The notes below the pieces were generated by a model, which saw only the letters and a list, made by a program, of their open reading frames with translations, was not told the DNA's origin and searched no databases. Positions 33,189-45,014 of a stretch of 46,802 bases of DNA are shown here, one piece after another (position 1 is the first letter of the stretch; the number at the start of each line of letters is the position of its first letter). Location: the NCBI GenBank assembly GCA_030447905.1, contig JAUJNZ010000012.1, positions 1-46,802 on the forward strand, written 5' to 3'. A program made the position numbers and the translations under genes. Source of the DNA: Thermoleophilaceae bacterium. Lineage in GTDB: Bacteria > Actinomycetota > Thermoleophilia > Solirubrobacterales > Thermoleophilaceae.

Positions 33189-33965
33189 TCAGCGTTGTCG
33201 TATGGCCGCGATGTTGAGACGCACATAGTCGAAGACCGGCGGGTCGCCGAGTTGCTCGAGGACGGCGTCGACGAACGTGGCGTGAAGCTCCTCCGGGATG
33301 TACTGGAGGTGCGGCCCGAGAATCACGGTGGCCAGGAACGCACGCGGGTCGGACGGGGTGACTGGGCGCTCCGCCGTCCAGACTCCGATACCCGAGAAAC
33401 CCGCGGCCCTTAGCCGCTCGGCGGTCTCATCCGGCGTAGCAAAGTTCCACAGGTCGGTGGGCGGCCGGGAAACGTCGGCGAAGGCAGGCTGGCCATAGGT
33501 CGTTCGCACCGCCTCCCGAACCGACGCTGCGTTTCCGCACGCTCCGCACTGGGCCGCGAGTCGCCCTCCGGGGCACAGGGCGGCGTGAATGCGCTCGAAG
33601 AGACGGTTGTGATCGGGAACCCAGTGGAAGACGGCGTTCGAAAAGATCGCGTCGACCGGCGCCTCGAGCTCGAGCGTCGTGAGATCGGCGGTGCGGAGCT
33701 CGACGCGCTTCCCGAGCCTCGTTCGCGCCGCTTCGATCATCGTCGGGGAGGCGTCGACCCCGATCACTCGGCCGTGCGGGAGCCGCTCGAGCAGCAGCTC
33801 GGTGACCCGGCCGCTGCCACAGCCGGCGTCGAGCACGGTCTCGTCACCGCTCAGCGGCAGGCGAGCGAGCACCTCCCGTCCCCATGCCTCCTGCGGGTCG
33901 GCAACGCGATCGTATACGGCCGCGTCCCAGTCGCGGTCGGCTCTCGGGGCCCGCAGCGGGCTCAC
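33189..33965 (-). CDS. SAM-dependent methyltransferase
   Basis: 258 aa, GTG at 33965. It is a class I methyltransferase with motif I VLDAGCGSGRVTE (about 44-56), the acidic ribose-binding residue in VIGVDASPTMIEAA, RTADLTTLE, FSNAVFHWVPDH (motif IV) and PGGRLAAQCG. It resembles trans-aconitate methyltransferase and related small-molecule enzymes (similar length and the FHWVPDH motif), but the substrate is unproved. The start overlaps the stop of the ParA-like fragment by 4 bp (GTGA). It closes the minus-strand run that begins with the hydrogenase protease. Confidence 0.85.
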   Translation of the reverse strand: MSPLRAPRADRDWDAAVYDRVADPQEAWGREVLARLPLSGDETVLDAGCGSGRVTELLLERLPHGRVIGVDASPTMIEAARTRLGKRVELRTADLTTLELEAPVDAIFSNAVFHWVPDHNRLFERIHAALCPGGRLAAQCGACGNAASVREAVRTTYGQPAFADVSRPPTDLWNFATPDETAERLRAAGFSGIGVWTAERPVTPSDPRAFLATVILGPHLQYIPEELHATFVDAVLEQLGDPPVFDYVRLNIAAIRQR

Positions 33966-34156
33966 GCGTCCCCGAGCGGGGAAGCGACGTCAGCCCCGCC
34001 GCCGAGCCCCAGGCTGCGCGCGAGCCCCGGCATCAGGTCGGAGTCGAGGCAGAGCACGCGGTGGCCGCGGCGAGCCAGAAGGCGCGCCGCCGTCCCGGCG
34101 ACCACCGACTTGCCGACGCCGCCCTTGCCGACGACGGCCAGGCGCGCGCGCGGCGC
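33962..34156 (-). pseudogene. ParA/CooC-like ATPase fragment lacking start codon and C-terminus
   Basis: Directly after the PadR stop, and in the same frame, the sequence reads ARLAVVGKGGVGKSVVAGTA, with a deviant Walker A GKGGVGKS, then RRGHRVLCLDSDLMPGLARS, and stops at 33962. Full-length relatives have about 260 residues; only about 60 are left. The codon expected to be the start is GCG instead of GTG/ATG, and no other start lies between the PadR stop and the P-loop. It is a second, more decayed relative of the CooC-like gene at 34912-35728. Expression as a PadR read-through fusion is a remote alternative. Confidence 0.65.
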
Positions 34157-34558
34157 TCAGCGCGCTTCGGGCTCGCGGTCGCGCTCGGGGTCGAGCGCCA
34201 CGAACTCCTCGTAGCGGCCCAGGAAGGCGTCCATCAGCCGGCGCGTGCGCGCGAGCGCGAAGACGCGGCGGTGGAGGTCCTCCATCCCGGGGCGGGTGAG
34301 CTGGTAGATGCGCCGGTCGGGTCCTGTGTCCGATCGCTCCCAGGCCGAGTGCACGAGGCCGTCTCGCTCGAGCGCGCGCAGGGCGCGGTAGAGGCGGCCG
34401 GGGTCTGAGGCCCGAAAGCCGAAGGCCTCCATCCGCTCGAGCAGGTCGTAGCCGTGGGCGGGCTGCTCGCGCAAGAGCAAAAGCAGGCACGGGCGCAGGA
34501 AGTCCTTGGGCGGGGCCGGCTCGGCGCAGACCTCGGCCAGGGCGGCGTCAGTGGACAT
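34157..34558 (-). CDS. PadR-family transcriptional regulator
   Basis: 133 aa, ATG at 34558, overlapping the end of the preceding Cys-rich gene by 11 bp. The winged helix has the PadR pattern: FLRPCLLLLLREQPAHGYDL, then SDPGRLYRALRALERDGLV and RRIYQLTRPG. A C-terminal helix follows (RRLMDAFLGRYEEF). PadR proteins usually repress nearby genes in response to small molecules. Location in the maturation run suggests control of the hydrogenase locus (inference). Confidence 0.9.
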   Translation of the reverse strand: MSTDAALAEVCAEPAPPKDFLRPCLLLLLREQPAHGYDLLERMEAFGFRASDPGRLYRALRALERDGLVHSAWERSDTGPDRRIYQLTRPGMEDLHRRVFALARTRRLMDAFLGRYEEFVALDPERDREPEAR

Positions 34559-34907
34559 GGCCGACCCGGTCCTCGAGGCAGCGCGCGGCCTCCTCGGGCG
34601 AGGAGTGACACCAGCAGTCCTCGGCGCACTCGCCGTGGGCGGCGCCGGTCAGGCCGGCGAACTCGTCGGCAAACGTGCGCTTTCCGAGCTCTGCCCCGAG
34701 GTCTGTGAGCGAGTAGCCGGTCGCCTCGGAGTCGAGGTAGCCCTCGGCTAAGAAGCGCTCGAGGAAGGCCCCGAGGGTGTCTGGGGGCACGGCCAAAAAG
34801 CGCGCGAGCACCTCGGCGGAGGGCGCGTCGTCGAGGCCCTCTGCGCGCATCCAGTACATCGCCTGCAGGACCTCGTCGCGGACCCGCAGGGCCTCGAGCT
34901 CGCCCAC
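34548..34907 (-). CDS. Winged-helix-like protein with C-terminal Cys/His cluster
   Basis: 119 aa from GTG 34907, 4 bp after the CooC-like stop. Residues about 10-75 look like a winged helix (LRVRDEVLQAMYWMRAEG, SAEVLARFLAVPPDTLGAFL, EGYLDSEATGYSLTDLGAEL). The tail carries HGECAEDCWCHSSPEEAARC: His91, Cys94, Cys98, Cys100, His101 and Cys110, a likely metal or Fe-S site. I do not know a named family. Placement between a nickel-ATPase-like gene and PadR suggests a metal- or redox-sensing regulator or a nickel-handling factor. Confidence 0.6.
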   Translation of the reverse strand: MGELEALRVRDEVLQAMYWMRAEGLDDAPSAEVLARFLAVPPDTLGAFLERFLAEGYLDSEATGYSLTDLGAELGKRTFADEFAGLTGAAHGECAEDCWCHSSPEEAARCLEDRVGHVH

Positions 34908-34911
34908 CTCT

Positions 34912-35728
34912 CTAGCCTCGGGCGGGGGCGGTCTGGGCCCCGTTTGGGTGGGCGCCGGCGGCGCCGTCTTCGCCGTCGGGGCTCGCCAGCGCTGCGGCGA
35001 TCGCGGCGATCGCTGTGACCGCCGGCGCCTCGGGGCAGAAGTCAAGCGGGGAGGCCTGGGCGCGCTCGGCGTTCGGCATGCCCTCGTCGAAGGGGACCAC
35101 GCCGGCGATCTCGAGGCCGTTTCTGTCGCAGAACTCCCCCACCGCGGCGAGCCTTGGTCGTCGCGGATCTTGTTGGCCACGAGCGCCACCCGCTCGAGGC
35201 CGAGGTCTTCGCCCAGGGCGGCCATCCGCCGGCCGGTCTCAAGCGACTTGTAGTAGGGCTCGACGACGCAGAGCATCGCGTCGGCATAGCGGGCGGTCCC
35301 CCGCGACAGGTGCTCGGGGAGGCCTCGGTGTCGAGGATGCAGACCTCTCGCGGCGCGTTGGCCGCGGCCTCGATCACGCTACGGACCGTAGCGTGCATCG
35401 AGCACAGTCACCCCTTGCCGGCGTGCTGGGGGTGGGCCATCACGAGCAGCGTCACGCCGTCGGGCCCGGTGACCGAGTGGCTCTCGCACACCTCGTCGAG
35501 GGTCTTTGCGAGCTCTGCGCCCTCGTCGGTGCGCCGCAGCAGGTCGCGCGACAGCGTGGGCATCTCGCCCATGCGCTCGGCGGGGATGCCGAGCGTGAGC
35601 GCGAGGTTTGGGTTCGAGTCGCCGTCGATGGCGAGGACCCCGTGGCCCGTGCGGGCCAGCACGCGGGCCATCGTCCCCGAGATCGACGTCTTGCCCGAGC
35701 CGCCCTTGCCGGCGATCGCAAGCTTCAT
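34912..35728 (-). CDS. CooC-like nickel-insertion ATPase; candidate selenoprotein with in-frame UGA, two frameshifts
   Basis: From ATG 35728 the frame reads MKLAIAGKGGSGKTSISGTM (deviant Walker A, residues 7-14) and AIDGDSNPNLALTLGIP, typical of the CooC/MinD family. Codon 107 is TGA (35410-35408), followed by L-C-SMHATVRSVIEAA. CooC proteins bind nickel at the dimer interface through a CxC at this place (GCxC), so the UGA sits where the first Cys is expected, giving U-L-C. A SECIS-like hairpin starts 5 nt after the UGA. Further on, homology continues after two one-base losses: near 35320 (DTEAS then EHLSRGTARYADAMLCVVEP) and near 35155 (VANKIRDD then AAVGEFCDRNGLEIAGVVPF), ending at 34912. 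With both repaired it is about 270 aa, normal for the family. It is either a selenoprotein with two assembly errors or a pseudogene. It lies 10 bp after the maturation protease. Confidence 0.65.
35369..35402 (-). promoter_or_regulatory. Candidate bacterial SECIS element
   Basis: Beginning 5 nt after the UGA, the RNA can fold as CUCGAU-(G bulge)-CACGCUACG-GUC-CGUAGCGUG-AUCGAG: 15 base pairs, one bulge and a 3-nt loop whose first base is G. UGA to apical loop is 21 nt. Known bSECIS elements have a short apical loop with an early G and lie 16-37 nt from UGA, so geometry and loop agree. The coding sequence alone does not require such a perfect stem. Confidence 0.6.
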
Positions 35729-35738
35729 ACCTGCGATC

Positions 35739-36248
35739 TTAGCGCTCGCCTCGCCCCGGCGCCGAGCCCTGCGCCCGCCACTCCTCGACGACCTTGAGGA
35801 CCTGCTCGGCGGCCGCCTCGAGCGCGCCCTCGACCGCGGCCGACAATCCCGCGCCAAAGCCCTCGGCGTCTGTGGGCTGGCAGCCCACGAGGGCCACGCG
35901 GGCGGGCAGGCAGCCGAGCCCCTTGGCCATCGAGAGGACGCGCTCGGGGGTGGCCAGGTGCATGTCGGGCACGAGGTCGTAGTCTGAGACTTCGGGCTCG
36001 ATGACAAACACCGTGCCCGCCGGCGCCCCGCGGTCGACGGCGTCGACGACGATCAGGCCGTCACAGCCGGCCAGTAGCTCCTGCAGCAGCGCGATCCCCC
36101 CGATGCCCGACTCGACGACCTCGACGCCGACCGGCAGGGCCGTAAGGCGGTCGGCGACCGCGGGCCCAAAGCCGTCGTCGCCGCGCAGGACGTTTCCGAC
36201 ACAGCCGACGACGATCCGCAGCGGAGGTCTGTGGGGGCGGGTGGGCAA
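35739..36248 (-). CDS. Hydrogenase maturation protease (peptidase M52, HyaD/HycI type)
   Basis: 169 aa from TTG 36248; a TTG at 36341 would add 31 low-complexity residues, so the start is uncertain. This family trims the C-terminus of the [NiFe]-hydrogenase large subunit after nickel insertion. Its signatures are present: VVGCVGNVLRGDDGFGPAVA with the first metal-binding acidic residue, LIVVDAVDRGAPAG with the second Asp, and DMHLATPERVL with the His. A matching large subunit with a cleavable tail is encoded at 41652. It is the first gene of the minus-strand maturation run and divergent from the lipoprotein gene. Confidence 0.9.
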   Translation of the reverse strand: MPTRPHRPPLRIVVGCVGNVLRGDDGFGPAVADRLTALPVGVEVVESGIGGIALLQELLAGCDGLIVVDAVDRGAPAGTVFVIEPEVSDYDLVPDMHLATPERVLSMAKGLGCLPARVALVGCQPTDAEGFGAGLSAAVEGALEAAAEQVLKVVEEWRAQGSAPGRGER

Positions 36249-36378
36249 GCGCTTAGGCTTCGGTCTGGGCGAGCGCGTGGGGGGCGCCCCGGGGGCTCCT
36301 CTCAGGGCCCCGGGCGACCGCAGCGCGGGTCGGGGTGGCAAAACGTCGCCAGATGTAGGAAGATGTCAGGTCGAAGAG

Positions 36379-36948
36379 ATGAGACGCCTCCTTGTCCTCG
36401 CCCCCCTAGCTTTGCTTCTGGCCCTCGCCTCGGCCTGCGGCCAGGAGGAGGCCGCCGACCGCGCCGAGGCGCCCCGGCGCTATGTCGCAGACCTAGAGCC
36501 CCTAAACGGCACGAACGTCGACGGCAGCGCGAGGATGGCGCTCTCCGACGACCACCTCACCGTCGACATCGACGCGCGCGGCCTCGAGCGCTCGATCCAC
36601 GCCCAGCACATCCACGGCGTCGGCGGCTCGGCCCGCGAGGCGGCCTGCCCGGTGCCCGCAGACGACACCGACGCCGACGGCTTTGTGGGCCTCGAGGAGG
36701 GAGAGCGCGCCTACGGGCGCGACCTGCTGGCGCTCGAGCCCTTCCCCACCGTCGGCCCAAGCGGCCGCCTCGACTGGGACCTGACCGTAGACGTCGACCC
36801 CCGCGAGCTCGGGCCGCTCGAGCGCCGGGTGCTCGTACTGCGCGGCCGCTCGGCCAACCTGGACGGAAGGGAGGGCGCCGAGTACGTGCCCGACATGCCC
36901 GTGGCCTGTGGGCGGATCGAGCCGGTCGGGGCGGTCGCAGCGAGGTGA
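36379..36948 (+). CDS. CHRD-like lipoprotein with an EF-hand-type loop
   Basis: 189 aa, ATG at 36379. The signal peptide ends at LASAC (Cys20), a lipobox. The mature protein has SIHAQHIHGVGG, like the HxxHIHG stretch of CHRD/SOD-like beta domains, and DTDADGFVGLEEG, a canonical 12-residue EF-hand calcium loop (D-x-D-x-D-G...E). It probably sits on the outer face of the membrane and binds metal. It is the first plus-strand gene of the left accessory set, 7 bp before small membrane gene B1. Role in the hydrogenase system is inferred only from position. Confidence 0.65.
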   Translation: MRRLLVLAPLALLLALASACGQEEAADRAEAPRRYVADLEPLNGTNVDGSARMALSDDHLTVDIDARGLERSIHAQHIHGVGGSAREAACPVPADDTDADGFVGLEEGERAYGRDLLALEPFPTVGPSGRLDWDLTVDVDPRELGPLERRVLVLRGRSANLDGREGAEYVPDMPVACGRIEPVGAVAAR

Positions 36949-36955
36949 GCCCGGG

Positions 36956-37204
36956 ATGATCCTGTGGTGGATCTTCGACATCGTGATCTTGGTGGTGATC
37001 GTCCCGGTGGTCGTCCTGTTGCTCACGCGCATGCTCCAGCCGGCCCTCGACGTAAAGCGGGGCGCCGACGAGCTCGCCGCAAGCGGCGACTCGCTGGTCG
37101 CCCACCTCGGCGGGGTCGATCAGCTGCAGAGGACGCGCGAGCTCGTGCGCGAGGTCGCCGTCGAGCTCGAGGGCTACGGCCAGGCCCTCGACGGGCTGCG
37201 CTAG
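36956..37204 (+). CDS. Small membrane coiled-coil protein, family B copy 1
   Basis: 82 aa, ATG at 36956. One N-terminal membrane helix (MILWWIFDIVILVVIVPVVV) is followed by a cytoplasmic helical tail: RMLQPALDVKRGADELAASG, GGVDQLQRTRELVREVAVEL. The tail aligns with the protein at 45593 (RVLRPVLEIRRYSLDILDAG, DGVDELERTRELTATVPRLV), so they are paralogues on either side of the hydrogenase. No catalytic motif. Likely a membrane-anchored scaffold or docking subunit. Confidence 0.75.
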   Translation: MILWWIFDIVILVVIVPVVVLLLTRMLQPALDVKRGADELAASGDSLVAHLGGVDQLQRTRELVREVAVELEGYGQALDGLR

Positions 37205-37213
37205 GTCGCTTTT

Positions 37214-37456
37214 ATGTCTGCGGTCGCCGTCGTCAGCATCGTCTTGGCGGTGGTGGTGATCCTCGTGCTCGCCGCCTACCTGATCGCGCTCGCCGTGATC
37301 CTCCAGCGCGTCCACGTGCGCCTGCGGGCGGTGATCTCGGCGATCGGCCAGGTCGGGCCCCGGTCAGAGGCGCTGGGCCCCGCCATCGAGACCTTGAGCC
37401 TCGAGCTCGACCAGCTGCGCCGCTCGCTGCAGCGGTTTACCCAAACCCGAAGCTAG
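37214..37456 (+). CDS. Small membrane coiled-coil protein, family D copy 1
   Basis: 80 aa, ATG at 37214, 9 bp after B1. One membrane helix (VVSIVLAVVVILVLAAYLIA) is followed by a helical tail containing AVISAIGQVGPRSEALGPAI and LELDQLRRSLQ. The pattern VxIVLxxVxxLLVVVLAxYL then E-x-LGP-x-x-E/TxNxxL is shared with the proteins at 38872 and 46158. Function unknown; see the paralogue finding. Confidence 0.75.
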   Translation: MSAVAVVSIVLAVVVILVLAAYLIALAVILQRVHVRLRAVISAIGQVGPRSEALGPAIETLSLELDQLRRSLQRFTQTRS

Positions 37457-37478
37457 CCGGCTCAAGGGACGGGCGGCC

Positions 37479-38174
37479 TTGGGCCTGCCAAGCGGCCGAG
37501 GAGATCGAGACCACCAAAGCGCCGGCGGGCTCTTTCCCTTCGCCCTGAGACAGAGGCCCCGGTGGCTCGCCGCCGCCGCCGTGGGCGCCGCGGCGGGCGC
37601 GGTCGCCCGGGGCGCAGTCTGTGGCCAGAGCACGGGCGACCGCGTCGGCTCTGAGCTCAGGCCGCCGCTGGCCTCGCCGCCGCCGCCGGCCCCCGCCCGA
37701 CCGCCCGCCGTCGCTGCGGGCTTTAGGCGCTTTTGGGCGCCGCAGGGGCGCTTTTCGATCGACTACCCAAGCGACTGGGCGCGGCTAGAGACCCCGCGCT
37801 CTGACGTAAAGCTGCTCGTCACCCGAGGCGAGGCCGCCTCGGTGCTCGTGCGCACGATCGCGCTTCGGTATCCGGTCGGGCGCTCAGACCTCGAGAACGT
37901 CGAGGCCCTCACCGACCGGATCGTCGCCTCCGGGCAGCAGGTGAGGCTCTTGGCCGAGGCGCGGCGGATCGAGCTCGGCGGCCTGCCCGGCTACTTCTAC
38001 TTCTACTCCTTCCGCGATCCAAAGACGCGCCGGCGCGGGACCCACTCCCACTACTTTCTGTTCCAGGGCTCAACGTTGATCACGATCGTCCTCCAGGCCC
38101 TGCCCGAGCGGCGCTTTGAGCGCTTTGCCCCAGACTTCGACCGGATCGCCGCGAGCTTTCGCGCCCGGCGGTGA
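37479..38174 (+). CDS. PsbP-like (Mog1/PsbP fold) exported protein
   Basis: 231 aa from TTG 37479; the start is uncertain. A hydrophobic Ala-rich segment (WLAAAAVGAAAGAVARGAV) and a Pro-rich linker precede a domain of about 140 residues. That domain begins GRFSIDYPSDWARLE and continues VKLLVTRGEAASVLVRTIAL, ELGGLPGYFYFYSF and HYFLFQGSTLITIVLQALPE, a PsbP-type pattern. In oxygenic phototrophs PsbP binds photosystem II; in other bacteria the role is unknown. It interrupts the left set of small membrane proteins, suggesting it works with them outside the membrane. Confidence 0.65.
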   Translation: MGLPSGRGDRDHQSAGGLFPFALRQRPRWLAAAAVGAAAGAVARGAVCGQSTGDRVGSELRPPLASPPPPAPARPPAVAAGFRRFWAPQGRFSIDYPSDWARLETPRSDVKLLVTRGEAASVLVRTIALRYPVGRSDLENVEALTDRIVASGQQVRLLAEARRIELGGLPGYFYFYSFRDPKTRRRGTHSHYFLFQGSTLITIVLQALPERRFERFAPDFDRIAASFRARR

Positions 38175-38297
38175 TCTGGTGGCTTGCCCAAGGCCGCGGC
38201 CGTAGTAAGATCCGGCCAGGACGCAAAACGCCGCGATCGCGTCGACGGGCCCCGGGGCCTCGAGATACGCCGGGGCTTTGCGGATCGCCGAGGAGGA

Positions 38298-38606
38298 GTG
38301 ACTGACTTGTCGTTGTTGACGATCGAGACGCTAGCCGCGCACACCGCCCAGAACCCCTATACGGGCTGGTGGGCGGGCCTCGTCATCGGCTTTGCCGTCG
38401 TCGTCGTGGTCGTGATCGTGGTCGCGCTGATCCTCACCTATGCCTCGCGCATCAGCGACCAGACCGAGGACGCGCTCGAGGCCTTCGACGCCGCCAGAGC
38501 GGGGACGAGCCCGCTGGCGCGCCTCGAGGACACAAGGAGCGCCGCCCAGGAGGTCCTCAACGCGATGCGCTCGGCCCGAGCAGCGCTTCCGGGGGCGAGA
38601 TCGTGA
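38298..38606 (+). CDS. Small membrane coiled-coil protein, family A copy 1
   Basis: 102 aa from GTG 38298; a TTG at 38307 has better spacing from AGGAGGAG. A membrane helix (GLVIGFAVVVVVVIVVALIL) is followed by a tail with ISDQTEDALEAFDAARAGTS and LARLEDTRSAAQEVLNAMRS. It aligns with the protein at 45348 (IVGQAKDITRSLDSARERTS, MFELSRTNLAVDRAARGLAR). Stop and next start overlap (GTGA). Confidence 0.75.
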   Translation: MTDLSLLTIETLAAHTAQNPYTGWWAGLVIGFAVVVVVVIVVALILTYASRISDQTEDALEAFDAARAGTSPLARLEDTRSAAQEVLNAMRSARAALPGARS

Positions 38607-38875
38607 CGGCGGTGACGATGCTCGACCCCGGCCAGGCCACCTTCTGGTGGATCGCGCTCGCGGTCGGGGCCGTCGTGGTCGGGGTGGTGGTCGTCTTGTT
38701 AGCCCTGCTCTCGCGCCTGCTAAACGACATCCGCTTCGGCGTGGCGGCCCTCGACGCGATGGCCGAGCGCATCGAGCACGGCTCAGCCGCCGGCGACCTG
38801 CGGGCCACCGCCTCGGTCCTGCGCGACATCCGCGACGAGATCCGCGTCCACGACGATCTGCTCTCCTCCCGATGA
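38603..38875 (+). CDS. Small membrane coiled-coil protein, family C copy 1
   Basis: 90 aa, GTG at 38603 overlapping the family A stop by 4 bp. A membrane helix (TFWWIALAVGAVVVGVVVVL) is followed by a helical tail (LNDIRFGVAALDAMAERIEH, ASVLRDIRDEIRVHDDLL). It is the counterpart of the protein at 45865, which starts its helix with TLWWITLGVGLVVALVVTAL. A and C are adjacent in both sets or separated only by B. Confidence 0.75.
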   Translation: MTAVTMLDPGQATFWWIALAVGAVVVGVVVVLLALLSRLLNDIRFGVAALDAMAERIEHGSAAGDLRATASVLRDIRDEIRVHDDLLSSR

Positions 38876-39135
38876 GCGCGGTCGTCCACATCGTCCTGAC
38901 GGTCGTCGAGATCCTCTTGCTGGTCGTCGTGCTCGCCGTGTACCTGGTCATCCTCGCCCGCCAGCTGCGGGCGATCGCCGACAGCATCGGGCAGCTGAGC
39001 GTGCGGGTCCAGACCACCGAGGAGCGCCTGCGCGACCTCGGTCCGGCGGCGGCGGAGGTAAACACCGCGCTCTCAGACCTGCGCTCGGGGCTCGCGCCGG
39101 TGGCCGAGAAGGCAACCCGGGCGGCCCGGGTATGA
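38872..39135 (+). CDS. Small membrane coiled-coil protein, family D copy 2
   Basis: 87 aa, ATG at 38872 overlapping the family C stop by 4 bp (ATGA). A membrane helix (VHIVLTVVEILLLVVVLAVY) is followed by a heptad-like tail (LSVRVQTTEERLRDLGPAAA, EVNTALSDLRSGLAPVAEKA). It is closest in pattern to the family D protein at 46158 (TVLIVLTLVEVTLLVVVLAG, GPRLREVNQVLEQV). Confidence 0.75.
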   Translation: MSAVVHIVLTVVEILLLVVVLAVYLVILARQLRAIADSIGQLSVRVQTTEERLRDLGPAAAEVNTALSDLRSGLAPVAEKATRAARV

Positions 39136-39163
39136 CGCGGGGCGCCTCGGTCAGGGTCAGGCG

Positions 39164-39595
39164 ATGAGCAGTCCGCTGCGCCATCCCGCCCAGTTCGCCG
39201 CCCTGGCGGTGGGGATCGTCTACTTGGCCGTGGGCCTGATCGGCTTTGCCGTCACGGGCTTTTCCGGGTGGGTGGTGGACACCCGCGAGGACATGCTCTC
39301 CTTCGACCTAAACGGCTTTCACAACATCGTCCACCTCGGGGTCGGGGCGATCCTGATCGGCGTCTCGCTCGTGCGCGAGCCCACCATCACCCAGGGGGTC
39401 CTGATCGGCGGCGGCCTCGTCTACCTGCTCGCCGCCGTGCTCGGCTTTACCGGCAACCTCGGCTCGCTTTTGTCGATCGACGGCAAGCTGGCCTCAGACA
39501 ACTTCCTCCACCTGGTGTCGGGCGCTGCGGCCGTCCTGGTCGGGCTGCTCGGCGGCGACCTGGGGGATCGCCAGGTCGAGGTCGTCCCGCCCTAG
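39164..39595 (+). CDS. DUF4383-family membrane protein
   Basis: 143 aa, ATG at 39164. Four membrane segments: FAALAVGIVYLAVGLIGFAV, NIVHLGVGAILIGVSL, GVLIGGGLVYLLAAVLGF and FLHLVSGAAAVLVGLLGG. The FDLNGFHNIVHLGVG motif is typical of DUF4383, a common actinobacterial family of unknown function. It follows the left small-protein set on the same strand. Confidence 0.8.
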   Translation: MSSPLRHPAQFAALAVGIVYLAVGLIGFAVTGFSGWVVDTREDMLSFDLNGFHNIVHLGVGAILIGVSLVREPTITQGVLIGGGLVYLLAAVLGFTGNLGSLLSIDGKLASDNFLHLVSGAAAVLVGLLGGDLGDRQVEVVPP

Positions 39596-39617
39596 GGGCG
39601 ACCCGGCGGCTTTTTTG

Positions 39618-40142
39618 GTGAGCGAAGTGGGCTTCGACGACCTGCTGAGACGGCTCGAGGCGCTCCTGGGCGAGGTCGAGGAGCTCGACGAGGCGACCAG
39701 AGCGCGGGTGTTCGAGCTCATGGACGGCTTTGACCTCATCCACCGGACCGCCCTCGGCGCCCTCGGCGAGGCCCTCGACCCCCAGACCCTCGAGCGCCTG
39801 CGCGGCTCAGACCCCGCCATCGCCTGGATGTTCGACGCCTACCGGGTCGGAGTCGACGAGCGGTCTGAGGCCGACGCCGCGCTCGAGTCGGTGCGCCCCT
39901 ACATCCACTCCCACGGCGGGAAGGTGGAGGTGCTCGAGGTCCGCGGCGGCGTCGTGCGCCTGCGCCTGTCGGGGGCGTGCTCGGGTTGCACCGCATCGGC
40001 GGTGACCCTCCAGGACGGGATCGACGAGGCGCTGCGAGAGCACCTGCCCGGCTTTGTGGCCACCGAGGTCGAAGAGGACGACGCCGAGCCCCACCCTCCT
40101 CCGAGCTCGGTCATCCTCGAGCTTCCACAGTTTCGCGGGTAA
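39618..40142 (+). CDS. NifU-like Fe-S scaffold domain protein
   Basis: 174 aa, GTG at 39618. The C-terminal half is a NifU-type domain: ALESVRPYIHSHGGKVEVLE, then LSGACSGCTASAVTL with Cys121 and Cys124, the CxxC that holds a transient cluster. The N-terminal about 75 residues are helical and acidic. It probably supplies or repairs Fe-S clusters for the hydrogenase small subunit, which needs three. It is the last gene of the left plus-strand set. A TTG at 39615 gives one extra residue. Confidence 0.85.
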   Translation: MSEVGFDDLLRRLEALLGEVEELDEATRARVFELMDGFDLIHRTALGALGEALDPQTLERLRGSDPAIAWMFDAYRVGVDERSEADAALESVRPYIHSHGGKVEVLEVRGGVVRLRLSGACSGCTASAVTLQDGIDEALREHLPGFVATEVEEDDAEPHPPPSSVILELPQFRG

Positions 40143-40237
40143 GTGGCGGACGCCGACAACCCGGCTGGGGTTTCCCCTTCCTGATCCTCCTCGCCCCGAG
40201 CGAGCCGAGCGACCGAAGCCCCCCGCCCCCTAGCCCG

Positions 40238-40771
40238 TCAAGTCCGCCCTGCGTGCTCGAGCTCGCACTCGATCAGCCCGAGCGTGGCCTGGGCCTGGCC
40301 GTAGGTGAGCTCTGAGAGCTCGAACGACTGCGGCGCGGGGTCTGGGTCGGGGACCGTCTCGAGGCGCTCGGCGTCTGGGAGCTCCTCTCGGGCCAGCTTC
40401 ATCAGGGCCTCGAACATGTCGTTGACCCGCTTGGGGAGGTCCCCGCTGGATCCCTCGAGCGAGCGCCGCAGCCGGTGGACGCGCTCGTGCAGGGAGGCGT
40501 CCTCGCAGGCGGCCTCGACCTGGGCGAGCTCGGCCCGCGCGCTGTCGCCGCGCACGTCTGAGAACGAGGGATCGAGCGCCGGGGAGTGAGGGTGGGCGGA
40601 GGGCATCTCGCTCGCCGGTCCGATGGCCGCCAGCACGCGGTCCTCAGAGCGTTCCTGCCTGGCCCGCTCGATCAGGTCGTTGACCCGCCCGGCGGTGTCC
40701 TTTCGCAGGTAGCCCTCGACCCCGTCGAGCTCTGAGCGCATGTCCCGGATTTCGGAAAGCAGGTCGGCCAT
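40238..40771 (-). CDS. Hypothetical helical protein of the hydrogenase operon
   Basis: 177 aa, ATG at 40771. Almost entirely acidic helix with long charged stretches (LLSEIRDMRSELDGVEGYLR, NDLIERARQERSEDRVLAAI, HERVHRLRRSLEGSS) and no membrane segment or Cys cluster. It lies last in the minus-strand run small subunit, large subunit, M52-like protein, this gene. It may be an assembly factor or a soluble partner of the coiled-coil membrane proteins. No family recognised. Confidence 0.65.
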   Translation of the reverse strand: MADLLSEIRDMRSELDGVEGYLRKDTAGRVNDLIERARQERSEDRVLAAIGPASEMPSAHPHSPALDPSFSDVRGDSARAELAQVEAACEDASLHERVHRLRRSLEGSSGDLPKRVNDMFEALMKLAREELPDAERLETVPDPDPAPQSFELSELTYGQAQATLGLIECELEHAGRT

Positions 40772-40837
40772 GGCTCGATACTACCCAGGCGAGGAGAGAT
40801 TAAGCACCGACGTCGCCGCCCCAGGGCTCGCGCGGCC

Positions 40838-41632
40838 CTAGGAGCCCGCCGCCGGCGCGGGGCCGCCGTCGGGCGAGGCCTCGGTCGCGATCCGCTCCTC
40901 GGGGGCCTGGAGGCGGTCGAGCTCTTCGATCAGGGTCCACCACAGGCCCCAGTCGAGCGCGGTCATGCCCTCGGGGGTGTGGCCGGCGGCGATCTCCTCT
41001 CGCAGGCGCTCGCGGAGGGAGAACGTCTTCTTCCAGCCGCCCTCGCGATCGACCGCCTCGAGCTCTGAGAGCAGGGCGCACAGGGCGCGCTCGGCGCCGG
41101 ACTCGCCGGCTTGGGCGCCCACGAGCTCTCGCAGCTGGTCTGAGAGCTCGAGCACGGGCACCCGGCGGACCTCCTCGCCCACGAGCTCTAAGGCGCGCTC
41201 GAGGCCCTCCTGGGCGGGCTCAGAGAGCGTCTCTGAGGGCTCTTGGCTTGCGGGCTCTACCTCGATCGCCACCGTGCGCTTGGGCAGGGCCCCAAGCCCC
41301 GCGGCCACCTCGAGCAGGAGGTCGATCGAGACATAGCCGACCACCGCCTCGCCGACGGCCACCTGGACCTCCTGGGCGGCGCGCTCTGTGGGCTCATAAC
41401 GGCGGCGCTCGACGGTCGCGGGCGCGCGCCCGCGCTCGGCCGCGCCGACCAGCACGAGCGCTTTGGGGCGCAGCTCCTCGAGGCGCTGGACCACGGCGAC
41501 GGCGCCGTAGGCGAGCTCCTCGACCAAGACGCCTGGGCCGAGGTCGGCTTCTGAGAGGCGCTGGGCGGCGATGCGCCCGAGGTCTAGGTCTCCCTGGTAG
41601 AGCTGGAAGACCCCGCCGACGAGGACCGTCAC
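40838..41632 (-). CDS. Degenerate hydrogenase-protease-like protein with extra C-terminal domain
   Basis: 264 aa, GTG at 41632, 19 bp after the large-subunit stop. The first about 150 residues follow the M52 maturation protease layout: VLVGGVFQLYQGDLDLGRIA in place of GxGNxLxxDDGxG, KALVLVGAAERGRAPATVER in place of the VDAxxxGxxPG strand, and a helix ending GLGALPKRTVAIEVEP like GLGCLPARVALVGCQP of the canonical protease at 35739. The second Asp and the His metal ligands of true proteases are absent. The last about 110 residues are helical (GWKKTFSLRERLREEIAAGH, ALDWGLWWTLIEELDRL) and not part of known proteases. It is probably a non-catalytic chaperone that holds the large subunit. Confidence 0.65.
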   Translation of the reverse strand: MTVLVGGVFQLYQGDLDLGRIAAQRLSEADLGPGVLVEELAYGAVAVVQRLEELRPKALVLVGAAERGRAPATVERRRYEPTERAAQEVQVAVGEAVVGYVSIDLLLEVAAGLGALPKRTVAIEVEPASQEPSETLSEPAQEGLERALELVGEEVRRVPVLELSDQLRELVGAQAGESGAERALCALLSELEAVDREGGWKKTFSLRERLREEIAAGHTPEGMTALDWGLWWTLIEELDRLQAPEERIATEASPDGGPAPAAGS

Positions 41633-41651
41633 CGACGGGCGGGCGCTTTGG

Positions 41652-43574
41652 CTACTCGGCCCCGCAGGAGCAGGTGTTTACCTCCCGCACCACCTTGCCG
41701 TGGCCGGTGGAGACGTGGGTGGTGCACGGCATGCAGGGGTCAAAGCTGCGCAGCGCGCGCAGCATGTCGACGGAGGTGAACTCGCTCGGGTCGCGCATCT
41801 GCTCGAGGATCGGGGTGTTCATCACCGCCTGCTCGTAGGGGCCGGGCTGGCCCCAGGGGTCGCGCGGCGAGGCGTTGATCGTCGAGGGGGTGCAGATCTG
41901 GTAGTTGGTGAGCTTGCCCCCCTCGATGACCGCGTGGTGGGTGAGCCAGCCCCGCCCGGCCCCCCAAAAGCCCGCCCCGATGCCCTCGCCCTTCTGGACG
42001 TGGCGGTCGAGCTCGCTCGAGTTCAGCCGGGCGACCTTGGTCTCTCCGCGGCGCATCAGCCGGTAGGCCTCGAGCAGGTTGTTGAGCCCGACGAGCTGGG
42101 AGAACAGGTAGTGGTAGGCGCGCCCGCGGTTTCGCTCGAACGCGTTCCAGACCTCGGGGACCCGCCACTCCACCTGGGTCTCGGGGGAGCGGCCCTTGGG
42201 GATCGTCATGCGGATGCCGTCGCCGGTGGCCTCGATGAAGTCGTTGGGCGGCATCTTCTGGGCCTTGGCGGTCAAAAACAGCCGCGCGTAGGCTCCGGCC
42301 TCGACGACGTTTCGGTCCCAGCGCGGGGCCGTCGAGTAGCTGTACTTGTCCTTGAAGCTCTTTTCCTGGGGCTTTGGCAGCGTGGTCTTGTTCCAGGGGT
42401 GGTAGGGGCTCAGGGGGTTTCCGAGCGGGTCGGTCTGATAGCGCATCCCGTCGCCCGATCCGTTGCCGTCGGTCCACTCCTCGTAGTAGGAGTGCTCGAC
42501 GAACTCCTCCCAGCCGATGTTGAGGTCTGACATGCGCGTGGTCACGAGCTCTCCGTCGATCATCGCCCCGGGCGTCGACCAGCGCCGCTCGCCCCACTGG
42601 TTGAAGTTCGCATACGAGGCGTCGTAGGCGTCGGGCTGGTCCCAAAAGCCCGTGTCGACGAAGTTCATCGGCAGGCTGCCGACCTCCTTGTAGCGCTCGT
42701 CGGCCGCGTAGAAGAACTCGGGGATGTCGTTCCAGACCGCCATCATCCGCTGGGCGTAGTCGAAGATCTCGCCGAGGCGGGCGTGGTACTCGTTCAGGGT
42801 CTGGAGGGTCACCGTCGAGGTCACCCCGCCCGGGATGATCGTCTGGGGGTGGGGGTACTTGCCGTGAAAGAGCACGAACATCTCGCGCGACAGGCGGGTG
42901 AACTGGATCCCCTCCTGGTAGAGCTCGCCGGTCAGCGGGGTGAGCGCGGTCATGATGTCGGCCATCGTGCGAAAGCCGTGGCGGTGTTCCCCGGGACAGC
43001 GCCAGCGCTCGGCCAGCGGCCACAGCTCTGGGTTTGTGGCCTTGACCACGGGCTCTGAGTAGTCGGGCCCGGCGAGCAGGTAGAGGTGGAGGGGGTTGTC
43101 GTAGCCCATCTCGGCCGTCTCGCCGAGGTTGCGCACGATCGTGCCCATCGGCGGGGGCGCGAGGTCGAGCGCCATCTCGACCGCGTAGGCGGCGGCGTGG
43201 GCGTGCACGCCCCCGCAGACCCCACACGCCCGCGAGGCGATGTAGGTGGCATCGCGCGGGTCGCGCCCCATGAGGATGACCTCATAGCCGCGAAACAGCG
43301 GCGCCTGGGAGTGGGCCTGGATGTAGCGGCCCTCGCGCAGGTCGGCGGTCATGTGCATGGCCATCGCCCCGGCGATCCGGGTCACGGGGTCCATGTTGAG
43401 GTCCTTGACGTGGCCGTTTCGCTCGACCAGGCGCTCGATCTGGGCGGTGCGCTGGGCCTCGGTCATGTGGACCTCGGGGCGGGCGGTCGAGACCGAGTAG
43501 GGGTCGGGAAAGCCCCCGCGCAGCTGCGCGTTGCCGGCGGAGTCGATCTCTACGGGAAGGGTCTTAAAGCACAT
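41652..43574 (-). CDS. [NiFe]-hydrogenase large (catalytic) subunit
   Basis: 640 aa, ATG at 43574, 3 bp after the small-subunit stop. It carries the Ni-Fe(CN)2CO active site that splits H2. The N-terminal L1 motif is RACGVCGGVH (Cys117, Cys120, His124) and the C-terminal L2 motif is DPCMPCTTH (Cys614, Cys617, His620). After His620 there are 20 residues ending CSCGAE, the peptide removed by the maturation protease. NMDPVTRIAG and TPLTGELYQEGIQFTRL-type segments are typical of group 1 uptake enzymes. The close relatives I recall are the actinobacterial high-affinity enzymes (1h and related), but subgroup is inference. All cysteines of the site are normal TGC/TGT codons, not UGA. Confidence 0.95.
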   Translation of the reverse strand: MCFKTLPVEIDSAGNAQLRGGFPDPYSVSTARPEVHMTEAQRTAQIERLVERNGHVKDLNMDPVTRIAGAMAMHMTADLREGRYIQAHSQAPLFRGYEVILMGRDPRDATYIASRACGVCGGVHAHAAAYAVEMALDLAPPPMGTIVRNLGETAEMGYDNPLHLYLLAGPDYSEPVVKATNPELWPLAERWRCPGEHRHGFRTMADIMTALTPLTGELYQEGIQFTRLSREMFVLFHGKYPHPQTIIPGGVTSTVTLQTLNEYHARLGEIFDYAQRMMAVWNDIPEFFYAADERYKEVGSLPMNFVDTGFWDQPDAYDASYANFNQWGERRWSTPGAMIDGELVTTRMSDLNIGWEEFVEHSYYEEWTDGNGSGDGMRYQTDPLGNPLSPYHPWNKTTLPKPQEKSFKDKYSYSTAPRWDRNVVEAGAYARLFLTAKAQKMPPNDFIEATGDGIRMTIPKGRSPETQVEWRVPEVWNAFERNRGRAYHYLFSQLVGLNNLLEAYRLMRRGETKVARLNSSELDRHVQKGEGIGAGFWGAGRGWLTHHAVIEGGKLTNYQICTPSTINASPRDPWGQPGPYEQAVMNTPILEQMRDPSEFTSVDMLRALRSFDPCMPCTTHVSTGHGKVVREVNTCSCGAE

Positions 43575-43577
43575 GGC

Positions 43578-45014
43578 TTACCTCGGGGCCTGGCCGCCGA
43601 CTTGGCGCTCCTCGGGCGGTCTCTGTGTGCCCGAAGGGTGGGAGTCGAGGGCGGGGTTCTTTGCCTCGGTCCATTGGCTGCGACTGCCCCACACCTCGGT
43701 GTCGCCCTTTGAGGTGTCGGTGGAGCGGCGCAGCTGGTCGTAGAAGCGGTGTCCGATCTCGCGCGTCCATCCGGGCTCCTCCCGCTCTGAGGAAAAGCCC
43801 GAGGGGGTGTGGTGGTGGATGTCCCACCGCGGCTCGCGGTTTAGGTGCTCGTTTGAGTACTCGCGCATCGGCCGGATGAGCGAGCCGAGCATCCGCGAGG
43901 CCATCGTCGAGACCTTGGACCCCGGCGGGGTCTTGTGGAAGGGCGTGAACTTGTCGGGAAAGCCCGGCATCGTGCAGCCGATGCAGGCGCCGCCGGCGTT
44001 CATGCAGCCCCCGACGTGGTTGATCGCCCCGCGGGAGGTGATGTTGCAGTTGACCACCGGGCCCCAGCAGCCGACCTCGACCAGGCACTCCTTGTCGCCG
44101 AACTCGTGGGCGTAGTCGCCCTCCTCGTAGTAGGCGCCGCGCACGCAGTGGCGGTGGACGGTCTCGCCGAACAGCCAGGCCGGGCGGCCGAGCTCGTCGA
44201 ACTCGGGCAGCGGGCCAAAGCCCTGCAGGAAGTAGCAGATCGCCGCGACCGTCTCGAAGAAGTTGTCGCCGATCGGCGCACAGCCGGGGACGTTGACGAC
44301 GGGGACCCCGAACGCTGAGCGGTAGCGAGAGCCGAGGAAGTCCATCAGGCTCATGGCGCCGGTGGGGTTGCCCTCCGCCGACGGGATGCCGCCCCAGGTC
44401 GCACACGTCCCGATCGCAAGCGACGCGGCGGCGTTGGGGGCCAGGCGGGCGATCCACTCGTTGGTGGTGACCGCGCGCTCGGCGCCGCCCGGGCCCCACG
44501 GCATCTCGCCCTGGCCGGCCCACCAGCCGCCGGTCTCCATCGCCTTGATCTCGTCGGTGATCGACCCCTCGAGGATGATCACATACGGGGCGTCGAGCTC
44601 GCCCTTGATCGCCCGCTCGTGGGCCTTGAGGAAGTTGGGGCCGGCCTCGAGGTTTACGACCGGGTGGTGGAGGATGACCCGCGGCAGGCCCGGGTGGGCG
44701 CCCAGAAGCAGGGCCTCGAGCGAGGGCTTCTCGGCGCCCGAGACGGCCACCGTGCAGCCGTCGCAGCTCATGCCGGCAAACCAGAACGCGTGCACTTTCT
44801 CGATCGGCCCGATCCGCGACTCGGGGCCGGCCTTGGCGTGGGGCTCGAGCAGCGTCTCCATGTCGATGCGGGCGGGCAGGCCGAAGTCGCCGACGTGCTC
44901 GGGGTCGATGGAGTGATCGGGGACCGGCCCGAGCACGTCGAGGAGCTTCTGGGCGGGCGTCTTGGGGGCGCTTCCGTTGGCTCCGTTGCGACCTCTTGAC
45001 CCTAGAATGCCCAT
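43578..45014 (-). CDS. [NiFe]-hydrogenase small (Fe-S) subunit
   Basis: 478 aa, ATG at 45014 with GAGGGA upstream. It passes electrons from the active site through three clusters. Proximal ligands: Cys84 and Cys87 in MSCDGCTVAVSG, Cys204 in GTCATWGG and Cys245 in VPGCAPIGDNF. Distal: His287, Cys290, Cys310 and Cys316. Medial: Cys337, Cys344 and Cys347, with Cys323 nearby. The CLVEVGCWGPVVNCN and ACIGCTMPGFPDKF stretches look like actinobacterial 1h enzymes, but those have Asp in CDGD where this has Cys87. There is no Tat signal and no C-terminal membrane anchor, so the enzyme should be cytoplasmic; about 110 extra C-terminal residues are hydrophilic. It leads the structural operon. Confidence 0.95.
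   Translation of the reverse strand: MGILGSRGRNGANGSAPKTPAQKLLDVLGPVPDHSIDPEHVGDFGLPARIDMETLLEPHAKAGPESRIGPIEKVHAFWFAGMSCDGCTVAVSGAEKPSLEALLLGAHPGLPRVILHHPVVNLEAGPNFLKAHERAIKGELDAPYVIILEGSITDEIKAMETGGWWAGQGEMPWGPGGAERAVTTNEWIARLAPNAAASLAIGTCATWGGIPSAEGNPTGAMSLMDFLGSRYRSAFGVPVVNVPGCAPIGDNFFETVAAICYFLQGFGPLPEFDELGRPAWLFGETVHRHCVRGAYYEEGDYAHEFGDKECLVEVGCWGPVVNCNITSRGAINHVGGCMNAGGACIGCTMPGFPDKFTPFHKTPPGSKVSTMASRMLGSLIRPMREYSNEHLNREPRWDIHHHTPSGFSSEREEPGWTREIGHRFYDQLRRSTDTSKGDTEVWGSRSQWTEAKNPALDSHPSGTQRPPEERQVGGQAPR

Follow-up and report, generated by a model that had tools for sequence, protein, structure and literature searches.

CooC has been described as using ATP to insert nickel into CO dehydrogenase (PMC9164220). 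An inventory of May 2026 covers 119 families and subfamilies of prokaryotic selenoproteins (PMC13188914); it includes no ATPase of the CooC, MinD or ParA type, and what comes closest is a CobW-related selenoprotein with a UxxC motif. The window, by which we mean the whole stretch of 46,802 nucleotides of Thermoleophilaceae DNA that was analysed, contains a CooC-type gene with an in-frame UGA codon at the position of a metal-binding cysteine. The initial annotation had proposed that this is a new kind of selenoprotein, and nothing like it is found among the 119 families. Nor did we find a CooC-type selenoprotein in published selenoproteome lists or the wider literature, as covered by open-licence papers, and an orthologue matched no selenoprotein-specific model in NCBIfam 2026. 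Our best reading of the sequences is that the selenocysteine (Sec) form of CooC would represent a selenoprotein family not described before, in which a Sec-ligated ATPase inserts nickel during the maturation of hydrogenase.

The protein is related to CooC1 of Carboxydothermus hydrogenoformans. The family profile aligned with CooC1 (3KJE) over its whole length (E 7e-31), making this nickel ATPase the closest solved structure by sequence, in keeping with the original assignment of the gene as a CooC-type nickel ATPase. In that alignment the Sec column fell on Cys112 of CooC1 and the next cysteine on Cys114, so the UGA does take the place of the first Cys of the CxC motif, giving U-L-C, as had been claimed. 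We take Cys112 and Cys114 of CooC1 to be metal ligands at the dimer interface. An AlphaFold2 model of an orthologue (pLDDT 80, pTM 0.80) also had 3KJE as its best fold match (E 7e-16, TM 0.72), and the ATPase-type HypB of Thermococcus (5AUQ, 3VX3) was among the other fold matches. The deviant Walker A motif (GKGGxGKT) is present, and the metal motif, which is CxC in the Cys relatives, is U-x-C in the window gene, with the UGA codon as its first ligand. The orthologue in locus L061 gave no match to TIGR00073, the model for GTPase-type HypB. The protein is very probably a metal chaperone. The features of the locus are collected in Table 1.

Table 1. Positions in the window of the CooC-type gene, its internal features and its neighbours.
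Feature	Position	Strand	Remarks
Small conserved gene, 119 aa	34548..34907	-	Directly downstream of CooC; weak winged-helix repressor match; cluster in 39 loci
CooC-type P-loop ATPase gene	34912..35728	-	About 272 codons when UGA is counted as Sec and both 1-nt frameshifts are bridged; Pfam CbiA/ParA-type domain; 3KJE best PDB relative
Second 1-nt frameshift, window copy	35151..35153	-	Base present in C20 copy, which is without a G in next GGGGG run
CCCC run, first 1-nt frameshift	35316..35319	-	One base fewer than frame of relatives; both contig copies
bSECIS-like hairpin	35369..35402	-	Conserved core 35375-35395; 6 bp + bulged G + 9 bp, loop GUC
UGC codon, second Cys of motif	35402..35404	-	Aligned with Cys114 of CooC1
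In-frame UGA, candidate Sec codon, first Cys of CxC metal motif (G-U-L-C)	35408..35410	-	Aligned with Cys112 of CooC1
Deviant Walker A GKGGSGKT	35687..35710	-	Translation; kept in two alignments of relatives
Hydrogenase maturation protease (HycI/HyaD type)	35739..36341	-	PF01750, TIGR00072 over cut-off
NifU-like domain protein	39615..40142	+	PF01106; kept in related hydrogenase loci, cluster in 18 loci
Weak hydrogenase-protease-like protein	40838..41632	-	TIGR00072 below cut-off; kept beside large subunit, cluster in 24 loci
[NiFe]-hydrogenase large subunit, group 1h-like, Cys form (DPCMPC)	41652..43574	-	PF00374; best PDB match 5AA5
[NiFe]-hydrogenase small subunit	43578..45014	-	PF14720, PF01058

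The gene lies on the minus strand, with its ATG at 35728 and its stop at 34912. Its product begins with MKLAIAGKGGSGKTS and around the UGA it reads LLVMAHPQHAGKG-UGA-LCSMHATVRSVIEAAANAPREVCILDTEAS; the codon is in frame between MKLAIAGKGGSGKTS...HPQHAGKG and LCSMHATVRSVIE. The in-frame UGA at 35410-35408 on the minus strand of a CooC-like sequence was thus correctly reported, but the description of that sequence as otherwise continuous was not, for two 1-nt deletions lie downstream of the UGA. The frame switches twice before the stop at 34912, at the CCCC run at 35319-35316, where EASP is followed by EHLSRG in another frame, and near 35152. Two frameshifts in addition to the UGA are what might be expected of a decaying pseudogene in which all three lesions are random damage. 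Several observations make this very unlikely. Another contig from this genome (C20, locus L046) is 99.9% identical across 6.2 kb, and at the second site the two contigs differ in their indels as sequencing errors would: the C20 copy lacks the window's deletion and has another 1-nt deletion in the adjoining GGGGG run. These differing indels are likely to be assembly errors, at least one of the two frameshifts being a likely sequencing error. The deletion in the CCCC run is common to both copies; it could be genuine, or an error made systematically at homopolymers. CooC relatives have intact frames, and the protein segment past the first frameshift is 93% identical to their consensus, so the window protein does not look decayed. 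FdhA-like matches of the same genome (G000:C19:11961-14107) are likewise split between frames and have no in-frame TGA, which suggests further indel errors in this assembly. Even if the window copy were broken, intact orthologues such as those in L061 and L066 have the same UGA.

The window contig (C2) and C20 have 33965-42896 in common at an identity of at least 99.9%. The match stops at 33965, where a second CooC paralogue is shortened to about 48 residues in the window, and a 2-kb segment of C20 with a TPR gene is missing from the window between 40157 and 40218. The window contig may thus far be read as chimeric or as a strain variant.

Dozens of homologues have UGA at this codon, which is more than chance would produce. 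In a search of 61 genomes, most close homologues from the genus and family had a single TGA at this place and other homologues had an open frame; in the alignment, the column is otherwise an invariant Cys (GULCSMHATVR vs GCLCSMHATVR). A wider scan took in the GTDB species representatives and 232 genomes of the order. It found UGA forms in the Actinomycetota (Thermoleophilia, Rubrobacteria and Acidimicrobiia), in Chloroflexota and Thermomicrobia, where they were mostly GUNC, and also in Acidobacteriota (GUMC, GULC), Verrucomicrobiota (GUMC), Armatimonadota, SAR324 (GUAC) and one Rhizobiaceae MAG; the named loci are all from MAGs, and the phylum labels, taken from the MAG records, depend on binning. 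The presence of UGA at the same codon across phyla shows that it is not a local mutation and is a further argument against random damage to a dying gene. Cys forms, too, came from several of the phyla that have UGA forms. In relatives this very codon is thus either UGA or a Cys codon, and their genes contain almost no stops elsewhere. On a quick tree the first ligand changed between U and C at least 14 times, so conversions have been repeated.

The restriction of UGA to a column where homologues have Cys would, by itself, fit equally well with a UGA that is read as cysteine by an opal-reading tRNA-Cys, or is otherwise reassigned, the protein then being an ordinary Cys-type CooC. The Cys-codon homologues, however, use ordinary TGC or TGT at this column, and the genome is equipped to make selenoproteins: selA (505 bits), selB, selD and a tRNA-Sec (selC) with the anticodon tca were all found above curated cut-offs. 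The machinery also goes with the Sec form beyond this genome. Within the order, selB or tRNA-Sec was present in 10 of 11 Sec-CooC genomes vs 92 of 232 genomes overall (p 5e-4), and among 40 genomes reached via the loci, selA or tRNA-Sec was present in 21 of 25 with Sec-CooC vs 6 of 15 with Cys-CooC (p 0.006). A Sec marker was not found in 4 of the 25 distant Sec-CooC MAGs, nor in one incomplete genome of the order. Reading the UGA as cysteine would, moreover, need no downstream RNA structure, yet the Sec forms have a covarying hairpin after the UGA that is missing from the Cys-codon forms. We consider cysteine decoding to be highly improbable, slightly more so than pseudogene decay, and Sec is almost certainly what the UGA encodes, to judge from this comparative evidence.

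The hairpin is present as the initial annotation described it: 15 bp with one bulged G and a 3-nt loop beginning with G, starting 5 nt past the UGA (CUCGAU-(G)-CACGCUACG / GUC / CGUAGCGUG-AUCGAG). Its folding energy is -26.8 kcal/mol (z -3.7 vs dinucleotide shuffles, 1 of 200 of which was at least as good). Minimum-free-energy z scores against synonymous shuffles separated the Sec forms (mean -0.84) from the Cys forms (mean +0.03) modestly (p 3e-4), and for this reason the specific hairpin was tested instead. The shared core begins 12 nt past the UGA and consists of nine potential pairs and a 3-nt loop with G first. As a null we recoded the same proteins 500 times, drawing synonymous codons at the frequencies found in the genes themselves. 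Of the seven inner core pairs, a mean of 6.02 was formed in 49 Sec sequences, vs 4.10 +/- 0.13 in the synonymous-codon null, and none of the 500 recodings did as well; the corresponding mean for 31 Cys sequences was 3.84 vs 3.77 in the null (169 of 500). Among 19 diverse Sec sequences, four pairs showed compensatory changes on both sides (C-G/U-A, G-C/A-U, U-A/C-G and A-U/G-C) and the covariation score dropped when the partners were slid, the structure having been taken from the tested sequences themselves, which are related. Relatives with UGA have thus kept the hairpin, with base changes that compensate each other, whereas relatives with Cys do not have it. Fewer pairs are seen in the common register in Rubrobacter, SAR324 and some others. 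Rfam, searched up to an E value of 10, returned no SECIS element; its library may or may not include a general bacterial SECIS model. One Cys form with a TGT codon (L093:1303-1869) keeps the 3' arm CGTAGCGTG and most of the hairpin pairs; this remnant might be a trace of a reversion from Sec to Cys.

UGA codons are not confined to the first ligand in this family. Paralogues have UGA at the second Cys (CxU: GCQUCG in L059, PCPUCG in L046) or at both ligands (UxU: GUNUG in L119, GUTUCG in L088, GUPUCA in L118; coordinates L119:9337-9903, L088:1032-1577 and L118:6294-6851, respectively). A GULG subgroup has retained the UGA and lost the second Cys; its members include L047:9138-9707, L060:5682-6251, L062:4252-4821 and L056:8805-9371. 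The genome from which the window comes has three distinct UGA-bearing CooC genes, its near-identical copy aside: the window gene, C22:18137 (GULG) and C20:87472 (PCPUCG). Any Sec codon acts as a stop without selenium and yields the full protein with it. The UGA could on that ground be a regulated stop that gives a 106-residue P-loop fragment when selenium is lacking and the whole protein when it is available, the gene serving mainly as a selenium sensor. Against this, Cys forms without any UGA occur, and the residue is the metal ligand itself, which suggests chemistry and not regulation; we find a sensor role barely credible and keep to Sec as a candidate metal ligand.

The locus agrees with its earlier description as a hydrogenase locus, with the gene adjoining a [NiFe]-hydrogenase and its maturation protease. 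The CooC-type gene comes after the HycI-type protease gene and is on the same strand as the hydrogenase subunits at 41652-45014. The large subunit matched 5AA5 with 454 bits, the next PDB match having 180; 5AA5 is the group 1h enzyme, of the actinobacterial type, from Cupriavidus necator. The neighbours scanned in the window are hydrogenase genes, with no CODH family reported among them, and the window protein is classed as a CooC-type ATPase and not as a CODH maturation factor. The 119-aa gene adjoins CooC in many loci. By a hand count, about 20 of 27 long Sec-CooC loci contain hydrogenase, hyp or hydrogenase-protease genes, although not all do, and many have a transporter with a family-5 solute-binding protein. 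In SAR324 the operon order is hypF-hypC-SIS-SIS-hypD-hypE-like (AIR-synthase-type)-CooC(Sec)-solute-binding protein of a transporter. Pfam scans of ORFs found no neighbouring hyp genes in L128 and L081. No GTPase-type hypB exceeded the cut-off in the window's own genome or in the other Sec-CooC genomes of the same family, a negative to be read with the incompleteness of MAGs in mind; in two genomes of the order (G058 and G217) Sec-CooC and hypB occur together. In another genome a weak hypB-family match below the cut-off (G137:C8:14443-15018) has one in-frame TGA and is possibly, from its sequence, another Sec-containing G3E GTPase.

A Sec-containing ATPase of this kind might serve a client other than hydrogenase, such as Ni-CO dehydrogenase or another nickel enzyme, or have a redox function. 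CooC1 itself serves CO dehydrogenase (PMC9164220), hydrogenase genes are absent from some of the Sec-CooC stretches examined, and a paralogue with a lone Sec (GULG) exists. Against this, most of the long Sec-CooC loci have hydrogenase, hyp or hydrogenase-protease genes and several have a nickel/peptide-type ABC transporter; Sec-CooC closes the hyp operon in SAR324; and hypB was not found in the window's genome despite its hydrogenase. Another client is in our judgement unlikely, although far less so than the other alternatives considered here, and the hydrogenase is probably the recipient of the nickel. We infer this delivery from CooC1, from the neighbourhood and from the absence of a GTPase-type HypB in the window's genome. 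The hydrogenase neighbourhood, the SAR324 hyp operon and the lack of hypB together suggest that the ATPase may take on HypB's nickel-inserting role in these bacteria.

The proposal of a Sec-containing CooC-type ATPase is therefore supported, Sec insertion itself and nickel delivery to hydrogenase being the parts that we infer. None of the three outcomes that the initial annotation had named as refuting it was seen. Taken as a whole, it is very likely that this is a selenoprotein gene and that its product is an ATPase of the CooC type (MinD/ParA class) whose first interface metal Cys is predicted to be Sec and which would insert nickel for hydrogenase maturation. In such a scheme, SelB, Sec-tRNA and the hairpin just past the codon would recode the UGA. 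A pair of monomers would form a Ni(II) site from their two U-x-C motifs (U-x-C / U-x-C), and the binding and hydrolysis of ATP would load or release nickel into the large subunit of the [NiFe]-hydrogenase encoded nearby, before its maturation by the adjoining protease. The advantage of Sec over Cys may, speculatively, lie in a softer and more easily re-reduced nickel ligand in oxygen-exposed soil bacteria. A bolder proposal is that widespread Sec-ligated nickel ATPases (UxC, CxU and UxU) replace GTPase HypB in maturing the group-1h hydrogenases of soil bacteria and help to keep the Sec trait where formate dehydrogenases are Cys forms; we regard the case for and against it as evenly balanced.

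Should the main reading be correct, the selenoproteome gains a family in which Sec is a metal-delivery ligand and not a catalytic redox residue, selenium use becomes tied to hydrogenase maturation, and there is an answer to how hydrogenases are loaded with nickel where the GTPase HypB is not found. With the natural U/C, C/U and U/U versions, the benefit of Sec relative to Cys in handling nickel could be tested directly. The Sec-CooC genes are also ones that ordinary annotation would end early at the UGA.

Among described systems, CooC1 (PDB 3KJE/3KJG/3KJH/3KJI), the nickel ATPase of CO dehydrogenase maturation, resembles the window protein in its full-length sequence, its fold, its deviant Walker A motif and the place of its CxC motif; the window gene differs in having a UGA/Sec codon for the first Cys and a [NiFe]-hydrogenase and its protease as neighbours. 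The ATPase-type HypB of Thermococcus kodakarensis (5AUQ, 3VX3, 5AUN) is likewise a MinD-class ATPase that delivers nickel to [NiFe]-hydrogenase and is a precedent for a HypB that is not a GTPase, although its fold match to the window-family model is weaker than that of CooC1; we know of no report of Sec in this protein. GTPase-type HypB (TIGR00073) has the function proposed here, insertion of nickel into the hydrogenase large subunit, but belongs to another NTPase class. The [NiFeSe]-hydrogenases, enzymes of hydrogen metabolism, also bind nickel through Sec, but have it in the active site of the enzyme, whereas in the window the large subunit is a Cys form (DPCMPC) and the Sec is predicted in the maturation ATPase. 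The CobW-related selenoprotein (NF041053; PMC13188914) is, like the window protein, a P-loop NTPase from a family of metal chaperones and is listed with Sec in what is otherwise a Cys motif (UxxC), but CobW, whose motif is CxCC, is a GTPase of the G3E class (PMC9164220), and so differs in NTPase class from the CooC-type protein described here.
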